A model generated the notes under the pieces. It did not search any database. It was not told the DNA's origin and worked only from the letters and a program-made list of their open reading frames with translations. From a virus: 21,729 nucleotides of DNA. The stretch spans positions 1-21,729 of IMG/VR virus record IMGVR_UViG_3300025728_000039; one strand, 5' to 3'. Within the stretch, counting starts at the first letter, position 1; each line of letters starts with the position of its first letter. The position numbers and the translations under genes were made by a program. Positions 2,702 through 21,516 of this stretch are shown in pieces.

Positions 2702-3289
2702 TTATTGCTGGTCTTCTACATAAATACCGGCGGAAATAATCGCGCCGCCGATCCGGCGTTTTCCGTAAAGAAGCGGAACAGGATAGCCCTGAGCGGCCGT
2801 ATTCGTGACACCGCCGAAGGCATAGGAAGCCTGGTTATCGGCATCCTGCTTACTGGCGAGACCGGAGGTCTGCGGGGAGAGCATTTGAATTACTCCTCCC
2901 GCTGCAAGTGCAACACCGGGCCCCACTAAAGCTAAACTCGCGCCGCCCGTAAAACCTGATAAAGCATATCCCGCAACAATCAATACGGCTCCGAGAATTG
3001 TTTGAAGCAAACCAGCACGTTTACTGCCAATAATAACAGGCACGATTCTTATAACGTCGCCAGTAACAGGGAAGCCGAGATCAACCTCTGCCAAATTTTT
3101 CTTTCCTTTAAAAATAGCATAGGTAATACCTCTTTTTTTGCTGTTATTCATATATCTTTCGAATCCCTCGATTGTACAGCTTAATGCTCTCCCCGCTTCT
3201 CCCACAGTTCTAATTAGTCGATGATGAACTTTGCCAAATGTTTTCCCAAGTGGTCCACTAAATTCAATTCTGGTCATGATTTCTTGCAT
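2702..3289 (-). CDS. I: Tail tip assembly protein I
   Basis: This 195-residue protein matches the lambda gpI family, needed to assemble the tail tip complex with K, L and J. The N-terminal part (SGPLGKTFGKVHHR, then TVGEAGRAL) and the segment IVPVIIGSKRAGLLQTILGA are typical. Residues about 92-135 are hydrophobic and glycine/alanine rich, as usual in this family, and the C-terminal part ends PVPLLYGKRRIGG. Two starts are possible, 3289 (preceded by GGGG) and 3277 (MTRIEF, the more family-like N-terminus). The gene begins directly after a terminator rather than overlapping K as in lambda, because cargo genes sit between. Its first half is clearly AT-richer than its second half. Confidence 0.9.
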   Translation of the reverse strand: MQEIMTRIEFSGPLGKTFGKVHHRLIRTVGEAGRALSCTIEGFERYMNNSKKRGITYAIFKGKKNLAEVDLGFPVTGDVIRIVPVIIGSKRAGLLQTILGAVLIVAGYALSGFTGGASLALVGPGVALAAGGVIQMLSPQTSGLASKQDADNQASYAFGGVTNTAAQGYPVPLLYGKRRIGGAIISAGIYVEDQQ

Positions 3290-3326: not shown

Positions 3327-3752
3327 TTAGATAGTTGTTGGTCTTAAATCCAATCCAGAACTGGTATCGCCAGTAATTCTATATTTTTGTATTTCTTTAG
3401 GTTTGATTTCTGTGGCATTTTCTTTTATTGGCTGCCCGATTTGGAATCCACACAAGCCTCTTCCTTCTTTATCTCCAGTGATTGCTAGGATATGACGCCC
3501 TGAATTAACTTTTATTGTTACGCTCTCACCTGTATCTATTCGCGCTACTGGCTTGCCGTCAACAGTAACAGTCACGAAACATCCACCACCCGCAAACCAA
3601 CCTTTATCTCGAGTAATCGTCAGTATAGAGTCGCCCTGAGATTTCCATAGGATACGAGACTGTGGAACTGGTTTTGCCGAATTACTTGGTGTCGGTGTTG
3701 TAGAGCAACCTGCCAGCCCGAGCGCCAGCACTGCTATGAGTAGTTTTTTCAT
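3327..3752 (-). CDS. Prophage lipoprotein of unknown function (cargo gene)
   Basis: This 141-residue protein has a clear lipoprotein signal: MKK, a hydrophobic stretch, then the lipobox LAGC with the modified cysteine at residue 16. Serine follows the cysteine, so the Lol +2 rule predicts the outer membrane. The mature part has two further cysteines (in GGGCFV and GLCGF) that could form a disulfide, and is otherwise beta-like. Its pattern recalls small lipoproteins found in enterobacterial prophages near tail genes, but I know no proven function. It starts 8 bases after the preceding secreted-protein gene and is followed by a terminator, so the two form a unit. Superinfection exclusion or envelope modification are possibilities by analogy only. 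Confidence 0.8.
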   Translation of the reverse strand: MKKLLIAVLALGLAGCSTTPTPSNSAKPVPQSRILWKSQGDSILTITRDKGWFAGGGCFVTVTVDGKPVARIDTGESVTIKVNSGRHILAITGDKEGRGLCGFQIGQPIKENATEIKPKEIQKYRITGDTSSGLDLRPTTI

Positions 3753-3760
3753 ATTAAGAC

Positions 3761-4294
3761 CTATTGCTCAACTTTTGGAGATGAGTAACCAGTGAGGTCA
3801 AATTTAAACTGCTTATTTCCAGCTTGATAAAATTCAGCCTCAATAATTAGTTTTTTGTGAGAGCTGACATTTTTAATGAAAGATGCCGAGTTTTCAAAGA
3901 AAATCACATCAGCACTTCCATCTGCAGCTTCTGTCATTGAGTACTGCTGAATTTTTCCATCGTCAAACTTCACAGAAATGTGGCAATCATTAAATGAATT
4001 GCACAAAAACTGGCCCTTGCTCATTACCAAAACGGCTTCAGTAGGTTTCAGGTTATCTGGTTTTTGCCCTTCTTTGAGCATAACTTTCTTTGAGCGGAGA
4101 ACAATAGTCATCTGTGATCCGCCATTATACGGAAAATCAAAATCAACAGAGTTATCTGAAACAGAACGCACAAACTTCTGCGCAGTACCTCGCATCTCAT
4201 CATTATTGAAGTACGCCGACCAATCATTAGCGAATGATGAAACACTTGGAAAAAGAAGGAAAGTCGTAGCGCCTAAAAATAGATATTTCTTCAT
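3761..4294 (-). CDS. Secreted protein of unknown function (cargo gene)
   Basis: The 177-residue product begins with a standard Sec signal peptide (MKKYLFLGATTFLL) with a likely cleavage after SSFA near residue 22, giving a periplasmic or secreted protein of about 155 residues. Two cysteines lie close together (FLCNSFNDCHI), probably a disulfide. The rest alternates short charged and beta-prone segments; no enzyme motif is visible. A ribosome site AAAGG lies 6 bases before the ATG. The upstream ATG two codons earlier is out of frame and stops at once. The gene is AT-rich compared with the phage tail genes and is paired with the lipoprotein, so both products go to the envelope. I do not recognise the family. 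Confidence 0.75.
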   Translation of the reverse strand: MKKYLFLGATTFLLFPSVSSFANDWSAYFNNDEMRGTAQKFVRSVSDNSVDFDFPYNGGSQMTIVLRSKKVMLKEGQKPDNLKPTEAVLVMSKGQFLCNSFNDCHISVKFDDGKIQQYSMTEAADGSADVIFFENSASFIKNVSSHKKLIIEAEFYQAGNKQFKFDLTGYSSPKVEQ

Positions 4295-4390: not shown

Positions 4391-4595
4391 TTACTCTGCG
4401 GGTGGCTGAGGGAGTGGCATCCAGTGAGTTACATAAAAATTACCATGCTGTAACCCACCGCTTAGTATCAATTCACTGAATCCTTTTAGATTATCAAAAA
4501 CAGCCACACCGACACCATGATTAGTGGCAACCAAAAAATCGCTCAAACTGACTAGTTACCTTGGGTTTTCTTTCTTTGATTGAAATCCACTTCAT
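4391..4595 (-). pseudogene. DUF551 protein gene, frameshifted
   Basis: This gene is split over two frames. From the ATG at 4595, with a ribosome site GGAG 7 bases upstream, the frame reads MKWISIKERKPKVTSQF and stops after 24 residues at 4521-4523. In the next frame the text continues SDFLVATNHGVGVAVFD and ends VTHWMPLPQPP before a TAA at 4391-4393. An N-terminal MKWIS(V/I)K-R-P and a C-terminal THWMPLP are the hallmarks of DUF551, a small phage and prophage protein of unknown function. The span is 205 bases, one more than a multiple of three, so a single added base (or two lost) near 4542-4545 explains the break. Restored, it would encode about 67 residues. Confidence 0.75.
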
Positions 4596-4645: not shown

Positions 4646-4667
4646 CAAAAGACCACCCGAGGGTGGC
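4646..4667 (-). terminator. Intrinsic terminator after the 69/125-aa gene pair
   Basis: On the minus strand the arms CCACCC and GGGTGG form a compact hairpin followed by CTTTT, 24 bases after the stop codon of the 125-residue gene. Confidence 0.65.
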
Positions 4668-4690: not shown

Positions 4691-5068
4691 CTAATTAACT
4701 TCCAGAACGTATGGGTCATTGGAAAAGAAGGGATCTTTACGCTGTATTGTCGCCAGGGTGATTCTTGCCCAAGGCTTATTAAACTTTCTTGTTAGCTCAA
4801 TAAAGCAAGGGATGTTTATCTTTGATACCCTGCACTTGATCACAAACGCTGCGCCGTCAGGTAATCCTTGTATTACTTTGGAATGTGAAGCTTGCACCTT
4901 TTTAAATATGTCTTCCAACTCTTGCAAAGTAATGGCAGGGTTATTGCGCTGGTCATTGACTCTATCAATAGCAAAATGACCAGATATGGAAATTTCTAAG
5001 CAGTCTTTATCGAGGTCATCATTAATCTGTGCCTCAAGATCGTCCAAACCTTGACGCGATATTGTCAT
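4691..5068 (-). CDS. Cargo protein with an HF-x2-DRVND-type motif, function unknown
   Basis: The 125-residue protein has a distinct pattern: SGHFAIDRVNDQRNNPAIT near residues 29-47, INIPCF near 84-89, and TIQRKDPFF near 107-115. This order (H-F-x(2)-D-R-V-N-D-x-R-N, then I-N-I-P, then T-I-x-R-K-x(2)-F) recalls, from memory, a conserved small domain in T4-like and cyanophage proteins of unknown function. I have not confirmed it by search. The H-x(n)-R layout is also vaguely like RelE/BECR-fold toxins, but no catalytic set can be named. Its ATG overlaps the stop of the 69-residue gene in ATGA, so the two are translationally coupled. The pair has its own candidate promoter and terminator. Confidence 0.75.
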   Translation of the reverse strand: MTISRQGLDDLEAQINDDLDKDCLEISISGHFAIDRVNDQRNNPAITLQELEDIFKKVQASHSKVIQGLPDGAAFVIKCRVSKINIPCFIELTRKFNKPWARITLATIQRKDPFFSNDPYVLEVN

Positions 5069-5274
5069 AGATGGCTAGCCACTACTTGCTCAAGCCGCTC
5101 ATTGAGCTCAGCATCACTTTCAGCGACAACAGTACCAATTAATTTGCTGTAGCTCCTAGTCCCAAACCTCACGTCAAATTCTTTGTTATCGAAGCTATCA
5201 ACAATTACACACCTACCAGCTTCGTCTTGAAAAGAAGCATAGTTCTGCCGAACTAGCATATTGAATTTGAACAT
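5065..5274 (-). CDS. Small cargo protein, first gene of a two-gene unit
   Basis: The start at 5274 is chosen because AAGGAG stands 7 bases before it; the longer open frame to 5406 has no ribosome site and begins with composition unlike a coding region. The 69-residue product (MFKFNMLVRQNYASFQDE at the N-terminus, ending LEQVVASHL) has no signal peptide or membrane segment and is mildly acidic. I do not recognise it. A small upstream gene overlapping a larger one by four bases, under a palindrome-rich promoter, is the layout of many toxin-antitoxin or inhibitor-effector pairs, but this is only context. Confidence 0.7.
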   Translation of the reverse strand: MFKFNMLVRQNYASFQDEAGRCVIVDSFDNKEFDVRFGTRSYSKLIGTVVAESDAELNERLEQVVASHL

Positions 5275-5384
5275 GATTATCTCCTTAGTCGAGACTATTG
5301 GAGCCAGCTGGAATCTTGCATAGCAAGAAATATTTGGATGATGGACATAACACCAATGTATCGGCACAGATGTCACTTTTCTTG

Positions 5385-5413
5385 AGTGTATGCATGCCTC
5401 ATGCAATTTTCAA
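5385..5413 (-). promoter_or_regulatory. Candidate sigma70 promoter of the 69/125-aa cargo pair
   Basis: On the minus strand TTGAAA (5413-5408) and TACACT (5390-5385) are separated by 17 bases, five and four matches to consensus. Transcription would start near 5378, leaving a leader of about 100 bases before the ATG at 5274. Two palindromes overlap it. Confidence 0.5.
5391..5405. promoter_or_regulatory. Palindrome in the promoter spacer (possible operator)
   Basis: TGCATG-CCT-CATGCA is a perfect 6-3-6 inverted repeat lying exactly between the -10 and -35 of the candidate promoter. A protein bound here would block the polymerase. Confidence 0.45.
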
Positions 5414-5424
5414 CTAAAAGTTGA
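5410..5424. promoter_or_regulatory. Second palindrome overlapping the -35 (possible operator)
   Basis: TCAACT-AAA-AGTTGA is another perfect 6-3-6 inverted repeat, centred 19 bp from the first. Its arm sequence differs from the first palindrome, so the two need not bind the same protein. Confidence 0.4.
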
Positions 5425-5458: not shown

Positions 5459-5478
5459 AAAAAGCCCACCTGAGTGAG
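5459..5478 (-). terminator. Weak terminator after K
   Basis: On the minus strand CTCAC-TCAG-GTGGG (five pairs, one G-U) is followed by CTTTTT, directly after the stop of K. It shares 16 of 17 bases with the 5' arm region of the hairpin at 4359-4390. Confidence 0.5.
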
Positions 5479-6189
5479 TTATCTAACGTCTTTATGCCGG
5501 ACAAGTTTCATGGTCCTTTCCTGCCAGTACCCCCCGTAAGGAACCCGGTTGCTGAGCATGCCGAACATGTGGTGCAGAAGCATGTTACCTTCCAGGAGGA
5601 TCCCGGCGTGATTCCACTTATTGGACTGAACCTGCATGATCACCATATCGCCCGGCATTGCTGGCCCGCTGAATTCGCGAAACCCGCATTCATACCAGCA
5701 GTCCTGATAAAAATTATCTGGGTGCTCGTCTTCCCACCACGGGTAATCGACACGGTAATCGGTCAGCTCAATGCCATGCGTCTGCCTGTAATAGCTCATG
5801 ACCAATCCCCAGCAATCCGTGTGACCGAGCACGAACGGTCGCTCGAGTAATGGCAATTCGCCGCGCGGCTGAATGGTACGAAAATCCCCCTCTGGCCAGC
5901 TCACGATGTGCCAGGGTAATTCGGTTGCGTCGCACTGCGCCTTATCCAGTTCGCTTGGCTGCGTCGTTGCATCAGGATGGCTGTGAACGATGGAAATAAC
6001 CGTTCCCCAGTCTTCGGCGTCAGCATAACCCACGGGATCGAGGTGAAAATCTTCGGTGGGATTGGCTGCCAGATTGGCGCAAGGAAAATAACGTTCAACC
6101 CGGCTTTTCTGCGCTACCACTCCACAGCATTCGTGCGGGTAGCTCTGCCGGGCATGTTCAAAAATAGCCTGCAGGGTTTTATCACGCAT
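5479..6189 (-). CDS. K: Tail tip peptidase K (JAMM + NlpC/P60)
   Basis: This 236-residue protein carries two peptidase domains, as lambda-type gpK does. Residues 1-110 form a JAB/MPN metalloprotease domain with the full JAMM set: Glu20 in PHECCG and H69-S-H71-x7-S79-x2-D82. Residues 120-230 form an NlpC/P60 cysteine peptidase with Cys126 (HTDCWGLV), His194 (NHAGILL) and a further histidine pair at 206-207. The protein is part of tail tip assembly and probably cleaves peptidoglycan during DNA entry. It starts two bases after the stop of L. Both active sites look intact. Confidence 0.93.
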   Translation of the reverse strand: MRDKTLQAIFEHARQSYPHECCGVVAQKSRVERYFPCANLAANPTEDFHLDPVGYADAEDWGTVISIVHSHPDATTQPSELDKAQCDATELPWHIVSWPEGDFRTIQPRGELPLLERPFVLGHTDCWGLVMSYYRQTHGIELTDYRVDYPWWEDEHPDNFYQDCWYECGFREFSGPAMPGDMVIMQVQSNKWNHAGILLEGNMLLHHMFGMLSNRVPYGGYWQERTMKLVRHKDVR

Positions 6190-6191
6190 AA

Positions 6192-7850
6192 TCAGCTCTT
6201 GATCAGAGATGTGCCCGGAAATCCACCGAACGGCAATTCGTTATTTGCCCCGAAGCGAGGTTTGCAGCCAGTGTTCAGCGTGCCGTTGCACACGTCGAGC
6301 GAGGGATCGCTAACCGGATTACCGTGCTTATCGAAATAGTTGGTCCCCGCGTAATCGCAGCCATCCCCTGAACGGTATTTGCCACGGATGCACCAGGTGC
6401 ACAGAGAATGAAGCTGCCGCGTCGGGATCATCAATCCCTGCAAATCCATCGGGCTGCTCAGCGTGAACTCAACAGAGATGTTGGTTTCCATGCTCTTGCT
6501 GTCGATGTAGAAAACCTGCAACTTTTCCTGCGTGGCGTCCGCCGTGGCATTTCCGCCAGCAAAGTTTCGGGCGTCGAGGTACTGCGCCAGCGTATCGTGA
6601 ATCGTCACCACAGCCTGAAGCATGTCATCGTAAGCCAGACAAAGCGCGGTAATCGACCCGTCAAGATTCGCCACAGTCAGTTTCGGCTGTGCGCCGCTGC
6701 CGCTGGTTGAAGCCTCAATGCCTTCAATCTGAACCGGCCACGCTGAATATTCATTACCTTGCCACCAGATGGATTTCGCAGGCAGTTTCGATTCGTCGTA
6801 AACCGGCGTCCCACCAATATATTCAATTTTGGTGATATAACGGGTGCCCCACGGCTTGGTTGCTGCAGGTAGCGCAATTGAACCGGCGGACGCGAAAGAC
6901 AGACTGTCTGTCTCGCCTGTTGAATAAGTTATCTTGACGCCGGATGCTCCGTTTGCCGGAATGACGGCTGTTGCTGCTGGCCGAGTCTGTATTGTTCCTG
7001 ATGTGTAAATTAAGCTCGTTGGCGCGCTGTTCTGTTCAAAATGCGCTCCCCAAACTGCTATTCCTTTCACACCATCACCGGTCATCAATGTGGTGCTGGA
7101 TGTGGCCATTGGATAGACAGCAGGTCGGATATCTCCACTGATCGTGGCCGCCGTCGTCGATGTTACCGTGACCCTTACCCAGCCATCAGCCAGCTTAATA
7201 ATCGAACATCTTGTCAAATCTGTAGCGCGCAAAATAACGCCAGCATTCAGATCGACCGTGACCAAATTTTGTTGAACTAAGTTGCTGGCCTGCACGATTG
7301 AGATCGTCGCGAATCCATATCCTGCATCCTTAATGAATACAGAAAAGCTGTAATCAGTATTCGGAGAGGGGATAAAACTTCTGTAAATAGGGTGTGTGTT
7401 ATTAACGGTGTTGGGGATCCATTTAGTCCCATTCTGCGTGCCATCCGGTGCAGTCACTGCGTTGCTGACTGCCGAGCCATTACTTTTTAACCATGCGGCA
7501 TTTGCCCAGGCATTCGAGTATGTCAGCAAGTTTGTTGATGCTGGTTCAGGCTCAGTTCTGCCGCCAAGTTCGAGCGGCAACTGGTTAGCCGCTGCCTGGT
7601 AGATTTTCCCATCCTGACCAATATAACTGGCCGCACCAGCGCGCTGGAATGTCACACGATTATCCAGCGCGGTTTCTGTCAAATTGATAGGACTCAGTGG
7701 ATTAGCCGCGGCAATTTCATCTTCGGTGTAAGCCAGATTGTAATTGTGAAATCTGAGGACTTCGCCGGTGCCAAAAGCGGTACCGTCCACCTCAAAAAGC
7801 CGGACAGTGTCGCCCGGCTCTAATTTCTGATAATCGTTGTTTATGCTCAT
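6192..7850 (-). CDS. L: Tail tip Fe-S protein L with a large inserted adhesin-like module
   Basis: At 552 residues this is more than twice lambda gpL (232). Residues 1-50 (NNDYQKLEPGDTVRLFEVDG) and about 345-552 (KSIWWQGNEYSAWPVQIEG, then IEGIEASTSGSGAQPKLTVANL) are the ordinary L protein. The C-terminus has the cysteines (484, 487, 498, 521, 529) that in lambda L hold an iron-sulfur cluster. Between them, residues about 50-345 form an extra module. It has the pattern of beta-rich domains in phage adhesins: VTFQRAGAASYIGQDG, EPASTNLLTYSNAW, YSFSVFIKD, LADGWVRVTV, AVWGAHFEQ. The module reads through in frame with no stop. The ATG overlaps the stop of M (ATGA). The protein sits at the tail tip, where the extra domain might face outward. 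Confidence 0.9.
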   Translation of the reverse strand: MSINNDYQKLEPGDTVRLFEVDGTAFGTGEVLRFHNYNLAYTEDEIAAANPLSPINLTETALDNRVTFQRAGAASYIGQDGKIYQAAANQLPLELGGRTEPEPASTNLLTYSNAWANAAWLKSNGSAVSNAVTAPDGTQNGTKWIPNTVNNTHPIYRSFIPSPNTDYSFSVFIKDAGYGFATISIVQASNLVQQNLVTVDLNAGVILRATDLTRCSIIKLADGWVRVTVTSTTAATISGDIRPAVYPMATSSTTLMTGDGVKGIAVWGAHFEQNSAPTSLIYTSGTIQTRPAATAVIPANGASGVKITYSTGETDSLSFASAGSIALPAATKPWGTRYITKIEYIGGTPVYDESKLPAKSIWWQGNEYSAWPVQIEGIEASTSGSGAQPKLTVANLDGSITALCLAYDDMLQAVVTIHDTLAQYLDARNFAGGNATADATQEKLQVFYIDSKSMETNISVEFTLSSPMDLQGLMIPTRQLHSLCTWCIRGKYRSGDGCDYAGTNYFDKHGNPVSDPSLDVCNGTLNTGCKPRFGANNELPFGGFPGTSLIKS

Positions 7851-8188: not shown

Positions 8189-11100
8189 TCACCTGCTTTT
8201 CATTGCATTCCAGATGTCACCGCCCGGGCGTAAATCTTTCGCCTTTTCCTGCTGATAAAGTTGCTTAACATAGTTGGCGATCTGCGTTCCGAATTGTTCC
8301 CATCCCTCGGAGGATTTCGAGCTGGAGTTACCGTTCCCATCAATAGAGATGTAAACCTGAGGTGCACCACCTGAGACGCCGGAAGAGTTACCCCCACCCA
8401 CCGCTCTAACGCCGAGCGAACCGTCAGCAGCCCGCGTAAGTGGCATGATGGCTTCCGGCCCTGCCTCTCCGAATACCCCAGCGCCCTGCGCAAAAGCAAA
8501 CATGGTTGGCGTGTTGTAGACCCCACCGCTGAATGAATTCAGGGACGGGGAATCGTAGACGCCGCCTTTGGCGTTAAAACTCAGGTTGCTATACGCACCA
8601 GAAGAGAATGAGCTGGACGCTGCCGCGCCGGATGTGCCTGCACCGCCGAAGTAACTCGCAACGCCGCCAACCAGAGAGCCGAATAAACCAGATGACGAAG
8701 AAGAACCGCCTCCCATAGCGCTGACCACCGCCATCTGAAGCGCCACTTTTTCAATAATCTGCAGGATTGACACGCCCCATGACTTCCAGCTCACCTTGTT
8801 GCCTTCCAGCATTGAAGTGACGTTGGTGAACGCGCTATCAAGGGTATTTTTCACGCCATCTGAAACGGTTCCGGATACGTTACTGACTTCCTCGAGCCAG
8901 TTGTTGTATCCCTTCGAAGCGCCAGACATCCAGTCTGCCTCTGCCGCAGCAGTGGCTTTATATTTCTTATCCAGTTCGGTCAGCGCAGCATCACGCGCCG
9001 CTATGGCCTGTGCGCCCTGGTCGGTTTTAGAGAACACCCTGTTAACCTGCTGGGTCTCATCAAACCGCGCGCGCTGCCGGTCACTCAGTCCAGCCGTTTC
9101 GGTCGTCAGCGCTGCCACATCCCGGTATTTTCTGGCTGCATCCGTTAAGTCCTTCAAAGCATCGGCCTGTTCGCGCTGTTTTCTGACAGTTTCGTCAGCG
9201 CGTTGATTCCACTTGGCGAGCTCAGCAGATGAAGCCTGAATGGCTTTGCGCTGTTCATCCGTCCATTTGGTACCGGCCTGGTGAGAGGCGGCATAAAGCT
9301 CAGAAGCCTTTTCACCTTCAGTAGCCCTGACCTTTTGAACCTCGATAGCGACCGTCAGATCGGCCATTTGGCGACTGTATTGCTCGGAGACTGTCGCCGC
9401 TTCACGCTCTGCCTTATTCTGGGCATTGGTGGCGGCAGTGCCGTCCTTTTTGGCCTGTGCCGCTGCAGCATCCTTTTTGGCTGCCTGATCTTTGTTGTAG
9501 ATGTAAGTCGTATAGAGTGCGCCGGTAAGTTTCAGGTCCTCGGCTTCATAAACATATTGCTGATGAAGCTTTTGCAGCCCTGAAAGGTTGGCTAACTCGT
9601 TTTCACGCCGGGATTTTTCAACTGCGGTGGATTGCTGAGGAGTGGCATTCGCGGTTGAAACTACAGGCCCAGCATATTGAGGCGGCGTGGCACCGGCTGT
9701 CGCCGACATTGACCGGTTAAGCAGGTCATAGGCACCTTTCAGAATGGAGACCGCTCCAGCCTGTTCGATAGCCTTTTTAGTTGCCAGATCACTGGCGTCA
9801 TTGACTAACTTTTGAGTGCTGGCCACTTTCGCCGCAGCATTCTCGCGTTCGTATTCCAGTTTGTTCAGCTTGTCGGTCAGTTCGATGTTTTTAGCGGTGA
9901 TGTCCGCCTGATCCATGAACGTGTTCAACTGGGTTACGGTCGGGTGTGCGTTATAGTCCTGCTGGATCTGATCCAACCCTTTCAGGCTGTCTTTCACTTT
10001 GGCAATCTGAACATCCAGATCGGCAAGGTCGCTTTTCTGTGCGGCCAGAGAAGAACGCGCGTCACCGGCTGTTGCCTTCAGGCCAAGCACAGACATGGTC
10101 TGAAGCTTGCCGTTTATCTCATCGAGATTATTGGCAAAGCTGACGGCTTCCTGGTGTACCTGTTGAGTATGCTGGTACAGACCATACATTGCCGTTCCGG
10201 CCGCAATAATAAGGCCCGGCCAACCACCCAGCAGGCTAAGAACGCCGCCACCCAGCCGGTTCATGACTGACGCTGTGTTATTCAGCTGGTTCATTGCCGC
10301 AGAACGCCCGCTGATAGCACTATTCAGTGATGTCTGGGCGGCAGCTAAATTCCGTTCAGCGAGAATTTGCGCCTCAATGGATGTTGCGGCAGCCCTTGCC
10401 TGTTGCGCACGATAAACAGTCTGGCGTGCAGCGGCCACGCTGACTTGTGCTCCACGCACATGAGCCTGTGCCAGCGCCACCTCGGCAGCAGTGTTTGAGA
10501 TTACTGCGGCCGTTGACTGGGCGACACTTCCCACCATATTCCCGAAGTACCGGGCAATGCCCAATCCAACCAGAGCGCCCGTAACATTCGCAACGGTATC
10601 GATATTTTTCGCCAGTCCATCCAACACGCCAGACAGACTTGATGACGCGCCAACCGCATCATTCGCACCACCCACCCATGCGAGGAAGGCATTTTTCACT
10701 TTCTGCGCGGATCCGCTGATCGAAGCAGGAAGGGTTTCAAACTCTTTTCTGAGCACCTGAACATTGGTCAGCAACGGGATTATCTTATCAGTCGTCAACT
10801 CGCCGTTGTTTGCCATGTTACGGAGACCGCCAACCGTGGTACCCAACCCATCTGCAAGAAGCTTCGCCAACCGGCCGCCACTCTCCATAATGGCGTTGAA
10901 TTCTTCACCACGTAAAACGCCGGAACCTAATGCCTGGCTGAGTTGCGTGATCACCGAACTGGCTTCTTCTGTGCTGGCCCCTGACAGTTTCAGCGACGTG
11001 GCCACGGTTTCCGTGACCTTCGCAACGTCTGAAGATGCATAGCCTGCCGCACGTAGCGCCTGGGCAATACGGCTGTAAAGGTTGCTGTTTGCCTCGAGAG

Positions 11101-11453
11101 AAGTCCCCGTACGTTGGCTGTGATGTGGCGTAATCATCTGCTGAGGTTGAAGCTAGGCGCAGCCGTCCGTTTAGCTGATTCCATGTGTCGGCAAATTCAA
11201 TAAGTTGGTGAGTGGCGAATGCGCCAGCAAACGCACCGGCTAGACCGGCGGCGGATGACTGAGCTGATGTAAGTTGCGCGCTTAATTCAGATACGGCTTG
11301 GCGAGTATTACGTGCTGCTGCTGCGGCCTTCTTGCCGCCCTGTTCCATCGTTTTGTAATAATCGGCCCCCATCCGGGAAGCACGGGAAATTTCAGACTGA
11401 AATGAACTGGAGTTCGCTGAAATTTTGATAATAAGTTCGCGCAGCGTAGCCAT
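8189..11453 (-). pseudogene. H: Tail tape measure protein, frameshifted
   Basis: Two frames together make one tape measure gene. The first, from the ATG at 11453, encodes MATLRELIIKISANSSSFQ through DDYATSQ (residue 112) and then turns to nonsense. The second resumes at 11116 with QRTGTSLEANSNLYSRIAQAL and runs 975 residues to 8189. Family members have about seven residues between these two points, so a loss of about 20 bases at 11117 is the likely cause. Restored length would be about 1094 residues. The remainder is typical: a hydrophobic segment near nt 10252-10174, long alanine-rich helical stretches, and the C-terminal GVFGEAGPEAIMPL. The tape measure sets tail length and helps DNA injection, so unless the frame is rescued the phage should not build working tails. 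Confidence 0.85.
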
Positions 11454-20939: not shown

Positions 20940-21009
20940 AAGACAACCTTAAGTGAGCTAGAATGCTTCAAGTGGCGTGTTATCCCCTAAAACAAAACAG
21001 AAGGCTGAA

Positions 21010-21516
21010 ATGGAAATAACAACTGTAAATCAACTTATTGCTGCCGGTGCGGGCCTTTTTGGTGTTCTGGTCGGTGGTGCTGTTACCGCAACTGTGAATT
21101 ACCGCGTTGAAAATGCTAAACGCAGGTACGAAAAAGAATCATTTGAGGCTGGTTTTATTGCAGAAGTCGATGCGTTATTAATGATTATCGAAAAAAGAAG
21201 ATATTTAGACTTTTTCACAGAATTCTTAAAAATGCCCGAAATCCTATCCGGTGGTTCTCAAGCGATGCTTTACGCGTTAATCCCAGATAATTACGCCCCT
21301 TTTTATCAAAATAATATGTCGAAGGTCGGGCTATTAGGTCCCGAGAAATCGTCAAAACTTATTCAATTCCATCAGATTTTGACGGCTATTATCCAAGATT
21401 TTAAGCCTGACTCTTATGTAGGCCAGCACGGGTTTGAAAAAGAGGCCTTAGAAGAAAATCTTCATCTTTTAGAAATGGCAATCAGCCTAGGGAATGAACT
21501 GACCACCCAAGGATGA
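21010..21516 (+). CDS. Membrane-anchored protein of unknown function
   Basis: This is the only convincing rightward gene, 168 residues. Residues about 5-27 (LIAAGAGLFGVLVGGAVTATV) form a single membrane segment, followed by a charged helical stretch (NYRVENAKRRYEKESFEA) and a mostly helical cytoplasmic part. The ATG at 21010 is preferred over a GTG at 20977 because AAGG stands 5 bases before it. The gene is AT-richer than the phage structural genes and runs against the late transcription direction, so it may be a separately controlled cargo gene or lie in a junction with other DNA. A TAGAAT at 20959 could be its -10, with no good -35. I do not recognise the family. Confidence 0.75.
   Translation: MEITTVNQLIAAGAGLFGVLVGGAVTATVNYRVENAKRRYEKESFEAGFIAEVDALLMIIEKRRYLDFFTEFLKMPEILSGGSQAMLYALIPDNYAPFYQNNMSKVGLLGPEKSSKLIQFHQILTAIIQDFKPDSYVGQHGFEKEALEENLHLLEMAISLGNELTTQG

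Follow-up and report, generated by a model that had tools for sequence, protein, structure and literature searches.

A moron with a predicted RegB/RelE-like RNase pair between tail genes of a lambda-like phage, and the probable control of its promoter and leader

Introduction

Two small overlapping genes lie between the tail genes of a lambda-like phage, behind a promoter overlain by two perfect palindromes. What do these genes encode, and what holds their promoter? We addressed both questions in a 21.7-kb viral contig (21,729 nucleotides; hereafter the window), whose lambda-like late region is on the minus strand. The immunity region is absent from the window, and the question of control was followed into related loci. 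An earlier note on the same DNA had described the promoter and its palindromes and proposed that the pair is repressed in its own right, perhaps by one of its own products, as in toxin–antitoxin or exclusion modules, and that it is probably expressed in the lysogen.

Results

An independently transcribed unit between tail genes K and I

Tail gene K ends at 5479 and gene I begins at 3289, and the cargo pair is located between them. The elements that define the unit are as follows.

5479–6189, minus strand: tail gene K (JAB + NlpC/P60; Pfam PF14464 and PF00877, phrog_30), the upstream neighbour of the cargo
5465–5478, minus strand: terminator-like hairpin after K, with a 5-bp stem followed by CTTTTTGC
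5065–5274, minus strand: ORF69 (phrog_14630), the predicted antitoxin or immunity partner
4691–5068, minus strand: ORF125 (phrog_14518), a predicted BECR-fold endoribonuclease, RegB/RelE-like
4652–4667, minus strand: terminator after ORF125, GCCACCC-TCG-GGTGGT followed by CTTTTGTTTT

The pair has terminators on both flanks and a single promoter, and shares its orientation with the conserved late genes K and I. It is a moron: a promoter, two genes, and a terminator set between tail genes K and I. Separate transcription of the pair, as the earlier note had it, is borne out by its own promoter (5413–5385) and its own terminator (4652–4667), and the two genes overlap in ATGA exactly as described there. 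Lambdoid morons between late genes likewise have their own promoter and terminator, insert among tail genes, and have variable neighbours; they differ from this unit, which carries a predicted RNase pair whose promoter is overlain by dyads and whose leader hairpin would bury the Shine–Dalgarno (SD) sequence.

A Rahnella prophage (contig 2840472181, present too in the genome of Rahnella sp. AA) has the unit likewise between K and I, with a DUF551 gene before it and a pair of genes for 262 and 127 aa after it. The window instead has a DUF551-like gene, a 177-aa secreted protein, and a lipoprotein, in that order, between ORF125 and gene I. Because the neighbours differ between the two prophages, the unit appears to move as a block. 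Elsewhere, the cargo has other neighbours: a tail gene on one side and a tape-measure-like gene on the other, a BRO-N gene, or a CI-like gene. A comparison of the region with 50,697 phage records gave no DNA match.

The DUF551-like gene of the window (4391–4595, minus strand) is broken by one extra T, with six T where locus L003 has five, and the DUF551 gene of Rahnella is on the opposite side of the cargo. The overlapping 262- and 127-aa genes directly after the Rahnella cargo (L004 3576–4744, plus strand; phrog_17809 and phrog_5176, of unknown function) resemble another two-gene module. Before gene I of the window (3327–4294, minus strand), the lipoprotein (phrog_890) and the 177-aa protein, which has a likely signal peptide (phrog_1848), are also cargo-like.

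ORF125 is a predicted BECR-fold endoribonuclease

ORF69 and ORF125 both belong to PHROG families of unknown function and gave no usable Pfam, NCBIfam, or PADLOC match; a PADLOC PbeC match of ORF125 was weak (E 0.028) and was disregarded. Both genes are under strong purifying selection, with a dN/dS of 0.03 for ORF69 and 0.08 for ORF125.

The structural model of ORF125, built with 34 relatives, has a pLDDT of 94. Among PDB chains, its top seven matches by Z-score (5.3–6.2) are six RelE/HigB-family toxins (RelE, HigB2) and T4 RegB, the latter aligned over ORF125 residues 1–125 (Z 6.1, 108 residues); Z-scores of about 6 are middling in general. A Foldseek search of the PDB returned nothing at E ≤ 0.001, and a search of BFVD matched an annotated phage T4-type site-specific RNA endonuclease (E 2.8e-6, prob 1.00). 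We accept the predicted BECR fold for ORF125 because the seven top chains come from one superfamily and because of the BFVD match. A common BECR active site consists of a helix His and a late-strand Ser/Thr (PMC5512222), and ORF125 has this configuration in H31 and T107, both invariant in 34/34 relatives. An hhalign comparison of the ORF125 profile with seven RegB proteins was not significant (prob 0.9%); the sole aligned stretch places H31 opposite RegB H48, a catalytic residue (PMC3014915). ORF125 has no PF10715 or phrog_1323 match. As the sequence-profile similarity is not significant, ORF125 is called RegB/RelE-like and is not filed as RegB; the model predicts a BECR-fold endoribonuclease of the RegB/RelE type.

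An ORF125-like domain is also found within proteins of 550–1000 aa of Sinorhizobium and marine T4-like phages (L009, L019, L053, L058, L066, L096, and L099), some of which have a nucleotidyltransferase-like N-terminus.

ORF69 is the near-constant partner of ORF125

ORF69 is modelled with a pLDDT of 93 as four strands and a helix. This predicted fold has no DNA-binding match and no clear structural match; PDB matches to CapZ, T7 Gp1.2, and AcrIF24 were weak (Z under 6) and were not used. In each of the ~30 non-giant loci checked, ORF125 directly follows ORF69, usually with the ATGA overlap, and one of these pairs (L015) is damaged by a frameshift. The toxin–antitoxin-like character that the earlier note had suggested thereby gains substance, from the predicted BECR/RegB/RelE-type RNase on the one side and its near-constant upstream partner on the other. 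We read ORF69–ORF125 as a new toxin–antitoxin-like RNase module. A literature search found no mention of the E. coli protein accessions, phrog_14518, or phrog_14630.

Four giant-phage records (Kaldavass and three contigs, 355–524 kb; L192, L193, L196, and L010) carry ORF69 by itself. No ORF125 was found in these four records by a search that found two positive controls; a PF10715 search of the same records, which detected no control, was uninformative. Counter-defence by orphan antitoxins is a known theme in lytic phages. This theme and the orphan genes of the giant phages together make ORF69 the likelier antitoxin of the two proteins, and the giant-phage orphan is possibly a counter-defence antitoxin.

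The promoter dyad over the −35 element is conserved

Upstream of ORF69, the promoter and three dyads are arranged as follows.

5385–5413, minus strand: sigma-70-type promoter TTGAAA-17-TACACT, 26/29 positions kept with unchanged spacing in Rahnella
5391–5405, minus strand: dyad 1, TGCATG-AGG-CATGCA, a perfect 6-3-6 dyad inside the promoter spacer
5410–5424, minus strand: dyad 2, TCAACT-TTT-AGTTGA, a perfect 6-3-6 dyad over the −35 element and a likely operator
5314–5328, minus strand: third 6-3-6 dyad, TCTTGC-TAT-GCAAGA, an RNA hairpin in the transcribed leader

The −35 element TTGAAA occupies 5413–5408 and is separated by a 17-bp spacer from the −10 element TACACT at 5390–5385. Dyad 1 is centred at 5398 and dyad 2 at 5417, 19 bp apart, and every base of the promoter and perfect dyads described in the earlier note is present. 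The whole window contains seven perfect 6-3-6 dyads; three of the seven are in the 204-bp cargo intergenic region, and no two of the seven other than dyads 1 and 2 lie within 25 bp of each other. Of 4,000 dinucleotide shuffles made from this intergenic region, 0.075% contained two 6-3-6 dyads within 25 bp of each other, 0.33% contained at least two anywhere, and none contained three or more. A 9/12 promoter match appeared in 23% of the shuffles, and the hexamers alone are weak evidence.

The Rahnella prophage is the one close relative found with an upstream region (n = 1): locus L003, at 99% identity, breaks off at the start codon, and scanning viral contigs for the pattern revealed no further case. 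The promoter block is identical at 62/66 bases between the window and Rahnella, against 50% at the four-fold sites of both genes (binomial 1e-14 versus the four-fold rate). The earlier note's reading implied palindromes conserved among homologues, which holds for one half in this relative: dyad 2 is identical at 15/15 positions, and dyad 1 is kept at only 13/15. We also read ~30 further pair-bearing loci of more distant relatives; the upstream regions examined there contain neither perfect 6-3-6 dyad, which rules out dyads common to all. The Rahnella version of dyad 1 reads CCCATG-AGG-CATGCA, with both changes in the left arm; two outer pairs are lost and a 4-3-4 core, CATG-AGG-CATG, remains. 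The third dyad keeps a CTTGC/GCAAG core.

The losses in dyad 1 and the lack of either dyad in distant relatives would suit accidental dyads on a constitutive promoter that is itself the only target of selection, and conservation does span the whole promoter block rather than the dyads alone. Chance, on the other hand, seldom places two such dyads within 25 bp, as the shuffles indicate, and the identity is complete across the −35 dyad and past it, more than a promoter alone needs; we consider this account rather unlikely. Selection on the promoter makes a real control site at dyad 2 likely: by sequence comparison, dyad 2 is a probable protein-binding site and dyad 1 is doubtful. Local recombination could also explain the similar promoter block in the two prophages, and the conservation, strong as it is, is not decisive.

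Relatives connect the pair to different operators

In the 5.9-Mb Rahnella genome, the only other perfect TCAACT-N3-AGTTGA is inside a coding (structural) gene of the same prophage. With this single intragenic copy, a host-wide regulon is unlikely. The Rahnella prophage cI region (46.3–46.8 kb) contains TTATC/GATAA among other dyads and lacks any TCAACT or TGCATG half-site; given this and the position of the second copy inside a coding gene, we rejected the motif as the operator of the phage repressor in Rahnella.

Other phages carry different motifs at the same cargo. In one relative group (proteins 60–66% identical), most members have TTGAT-N3-ATCAA over a presumed extended −10; this motif was rejected as a regulon, as no genome of that group has more than one perfect copy. 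The epsilon15-like (Uetakevirus) prophages found in E. coli and Klebsiella have a TTACC-N5-GGTAA site that overlaps the presumed cargo promoter start, with one mismatch in this copy in some of them. The motif occurs in 10–15 copies per ~40 kb, versus 0–1 for a reversed-pattern control, and most of its sites are directly 5′ of genes, the divergent cI region and int among them. This distribution looks like a genome-wide repressor regulon, and the pair appears to be wired to the phage's master repressor in these prophages. Since the cargo promoter carries this apparent master operator, silence of the pair in the lysogen is predicted there. A published account of a Uetakevirus repressor contains no operator sequence. 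In the prophage of E. coli H10407 (L158), the sites are at 4976, 11232, 12365, 29943, 33251, 36960, 37022, 39353, 40065, and 40127, among others, and the motif also recurs in OK490417.1.

By analogy, the lysogeny repressor of the resident phage could bind the dyads of the window, so that the pair would be silent in the lysogen and switched on by induction. The epsilon15-like prophages offer the precedent, with one motif at the pair's promoter, the cI region, and int. The Rahnella prophage, despite its matching cargo promoter, speaks against such a scheme through its cI region free of either half-site and its other dyad-2 copy found only within a structural gene, and we hold it to be improbable.

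Type II autoregulation, in which ORF69, alone or with ORF125, binds both dyads and represses the promoter like RelB/RelE, has the architecture in its favour: two dyads 19 bp apart over the −35 element and spacer, overlapping genes, a BECR-type second protein, and a dyad 2 unchanged in Rahnella. Its difficulties are that the predicted ORF69 fold has no DNA-binding match, that dyad 1 is lost in the closest relative, and that the operators differ wholly among relatives although their ORF69 proteins are 52–67% identical. Repression by a product of the pair, put forward in the earlier note, is disfavoured on these grounds, as the pair is kept while its promoter dyads change completely, and seems to us improbable as well. 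Any regulator at dyad 2 is likelier to be a resident phage or host protein than the pair itself, because relatives wire the pair to different operators.

A conserved leader hairpin is predicted to bury the ORF69 Shine–Dalgarno sequence

The leader just 5′ of the ORF69 start codon holds a further element, absent from the earlier note.

5280–5303, minus strand: 24-nt leader element CTCCAATAGTCTCG[A/G]CTAAGGAGA, a hairpin pairing CUCC with the SD GGAG of ORF69

Across eight leaders from two groups, this element is invariant except for one A/G position and is the best conserved leader segment. The 110 nt upstream of it are 47–51% identical between the groups (shuffled mean 46%), and the genes are 63–67% identical. 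In the predicted hairpin, CUCC pairs with the SD GGAG and UAGU with RCUA, and the variable base keeps its pair (U-A or U-G); the ORF69 SD is predicted to be paired with P 0.95. Other groups bury the same GGAG through unrelated arms (CCC-GUAU-GGGAGG; CUCCC-UGC-GGGAG). Taken one by one, such cases of SD burial rank no higher than the top 5–27% of control genes, and burial is absent in relatives L113, L014, and L017; for both reasons, the hairpin is claimed only for the ORF69 branch of the window, where it is conserved and probably regulatory. No SD is evident for ORF125, whose start is within the ATGA, and the output of both genes should therefore depend on the translation of ORF69.

T4 RegB cleaves the GGAG of its own SD, with a preference for GG*AGRAYARAA (PMC3014915). 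The leader of one relative group reads GGAGAACAA, a suggestive fit to this preference. RNA secondary structure inhibits RegB (PMC3014915), and since the GGAG is predicted to be paired here, a simple self-cutting model is disfavoured.

ORF125 might be a RegB-like manager of phage mRNA rather than a toxin, modulated by ORF69 during lytic growth. The best functional Foldseek match of ORF125 is a RegB-type endonuclease, T4 RegB trims early mRNAs at GGAG besides cutting its own SD (PMC3014915), related domains form parts of large phage proteins, and in the epsilon15-like relatives the pair is apparently repressed during lysogeny. Nevertheless, the pair is organised as a moron, under a promoter and terminator of its own, recurs in unrelated phages, and always includes a dedicated partner, as is usual for cargo modules. 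The annotation around T4 regB lists no ORF69 homologue; a managing role is in our view unlikely.

Discussion

The reading that we consider probable is that of a moron with a toxin–antitoxin-like RNase pair, the output of which is held low at the dyad 2 promoter and by the SD hairpin. A weak-to-moderate promoter would drive this mobile, independently transcribed unit of a lambda-like prophage. A DNA-binding protein, most likely a repressor judging from the symmetry, position, and conservation of the dyad, would sit over the −35 element, and the leader hairpin would bury the GGAG of ORF69 and, via coupling, also limit ORF125. ORF69 would be made first, with ORF125 translationally coupled through the ATGA, and, as the likely neutralising partner, would hold the ORF125 RNase. 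Loss of ORF69 or a phage trigger may then free the RNase for exclusion or prophage maintenance. What the analysis shows directly are sequence features, conservation, linkage, and predicted folds; the RNase activity, its neutralisation by ORF69, the repression, and the role in phage exclusion or prophage maintenance are what we infer from them.

The module resembles several known systems. T4 RegB (PF10715, phrog_1323) shares with ORF125 a predicted full-length fold, the alignment of H48 with H31, a phage origin, and a GGAG in its own leader. It differs in that ORF125 has no significant profile similarity to it and belongs to a paired moron of temperate phages, whereas regB is a solo early gene. 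RelBE and HigBA type II modules have in common with the pair the RelE-type fold of ORF125, a small first gene, the ATGA overlap, and promoter dyads. Like their genes, ORF69 and ORF125 are small, co-oriented, overlapping, and linked in every non-giant locus checked, but ORF69 gave no match to a known antitoxin family in Pfam, NCBIfam, or PADLOC and has no recognised DNA-binding fold. Nor are operator dyads conserved with the pair, since dyad 2 is shared only with the closest relative and others have different dyads. The PBECR domains of phage polyvalent proteins, solo or fused (PMC5512222), have the BECR fold, the helix His and late-strand Thr, and embedded relatives; the pair described here is a standalone two-gene unit and matched no Pfam family.

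A bolder version of this reading, which we consider unlikely, is that ORF69–ORF125 represents a RegB-type toxin–antitoxin defence module that has so far gone unrecognised in temperate phages. It would comprise an mRNA RNase of the GGAG type and a dedicated anti-RegB, with the buried GGAG of the leader hairpin as part of self-limitation and the orphan ORF69 of giant phages as a counter-defence antitoxin. The T4 literature asks whether RegB has an anti-RegB partner (PMC3014915), a question on which the pair would already bear under the main reading. If that main reading is true, two families so far catalogued only as 'unknown function' (phrog_14518 and phrog_14630) would form a new toxin–antitoxin or defence family across temperate phages of Enterobacterales, Vibrio, and others, and the orphan ORF69 of giant phages would provide a direct test for counter-defence. 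The same cargo behind different operators in different phages also allows the acquisition of regulation by morons to be compared cleanly in natural material.

Other genes of the window

A 179-aa gene (20977–21516, plus strand) is opposed to the late genes and is without a family match. The tape measure gene (8189–11453, minus strand) is apparently in two frames near 10905–11137, perhaps through a single-base indel or an assembly error. Minor tail protein L (6192–7850, minus strand) has 552 aa, versus 250 aa in Rahnella (L004 839–1591), and its ~300 additional residues (51–345) match phrog_11600 and phrog_5939.
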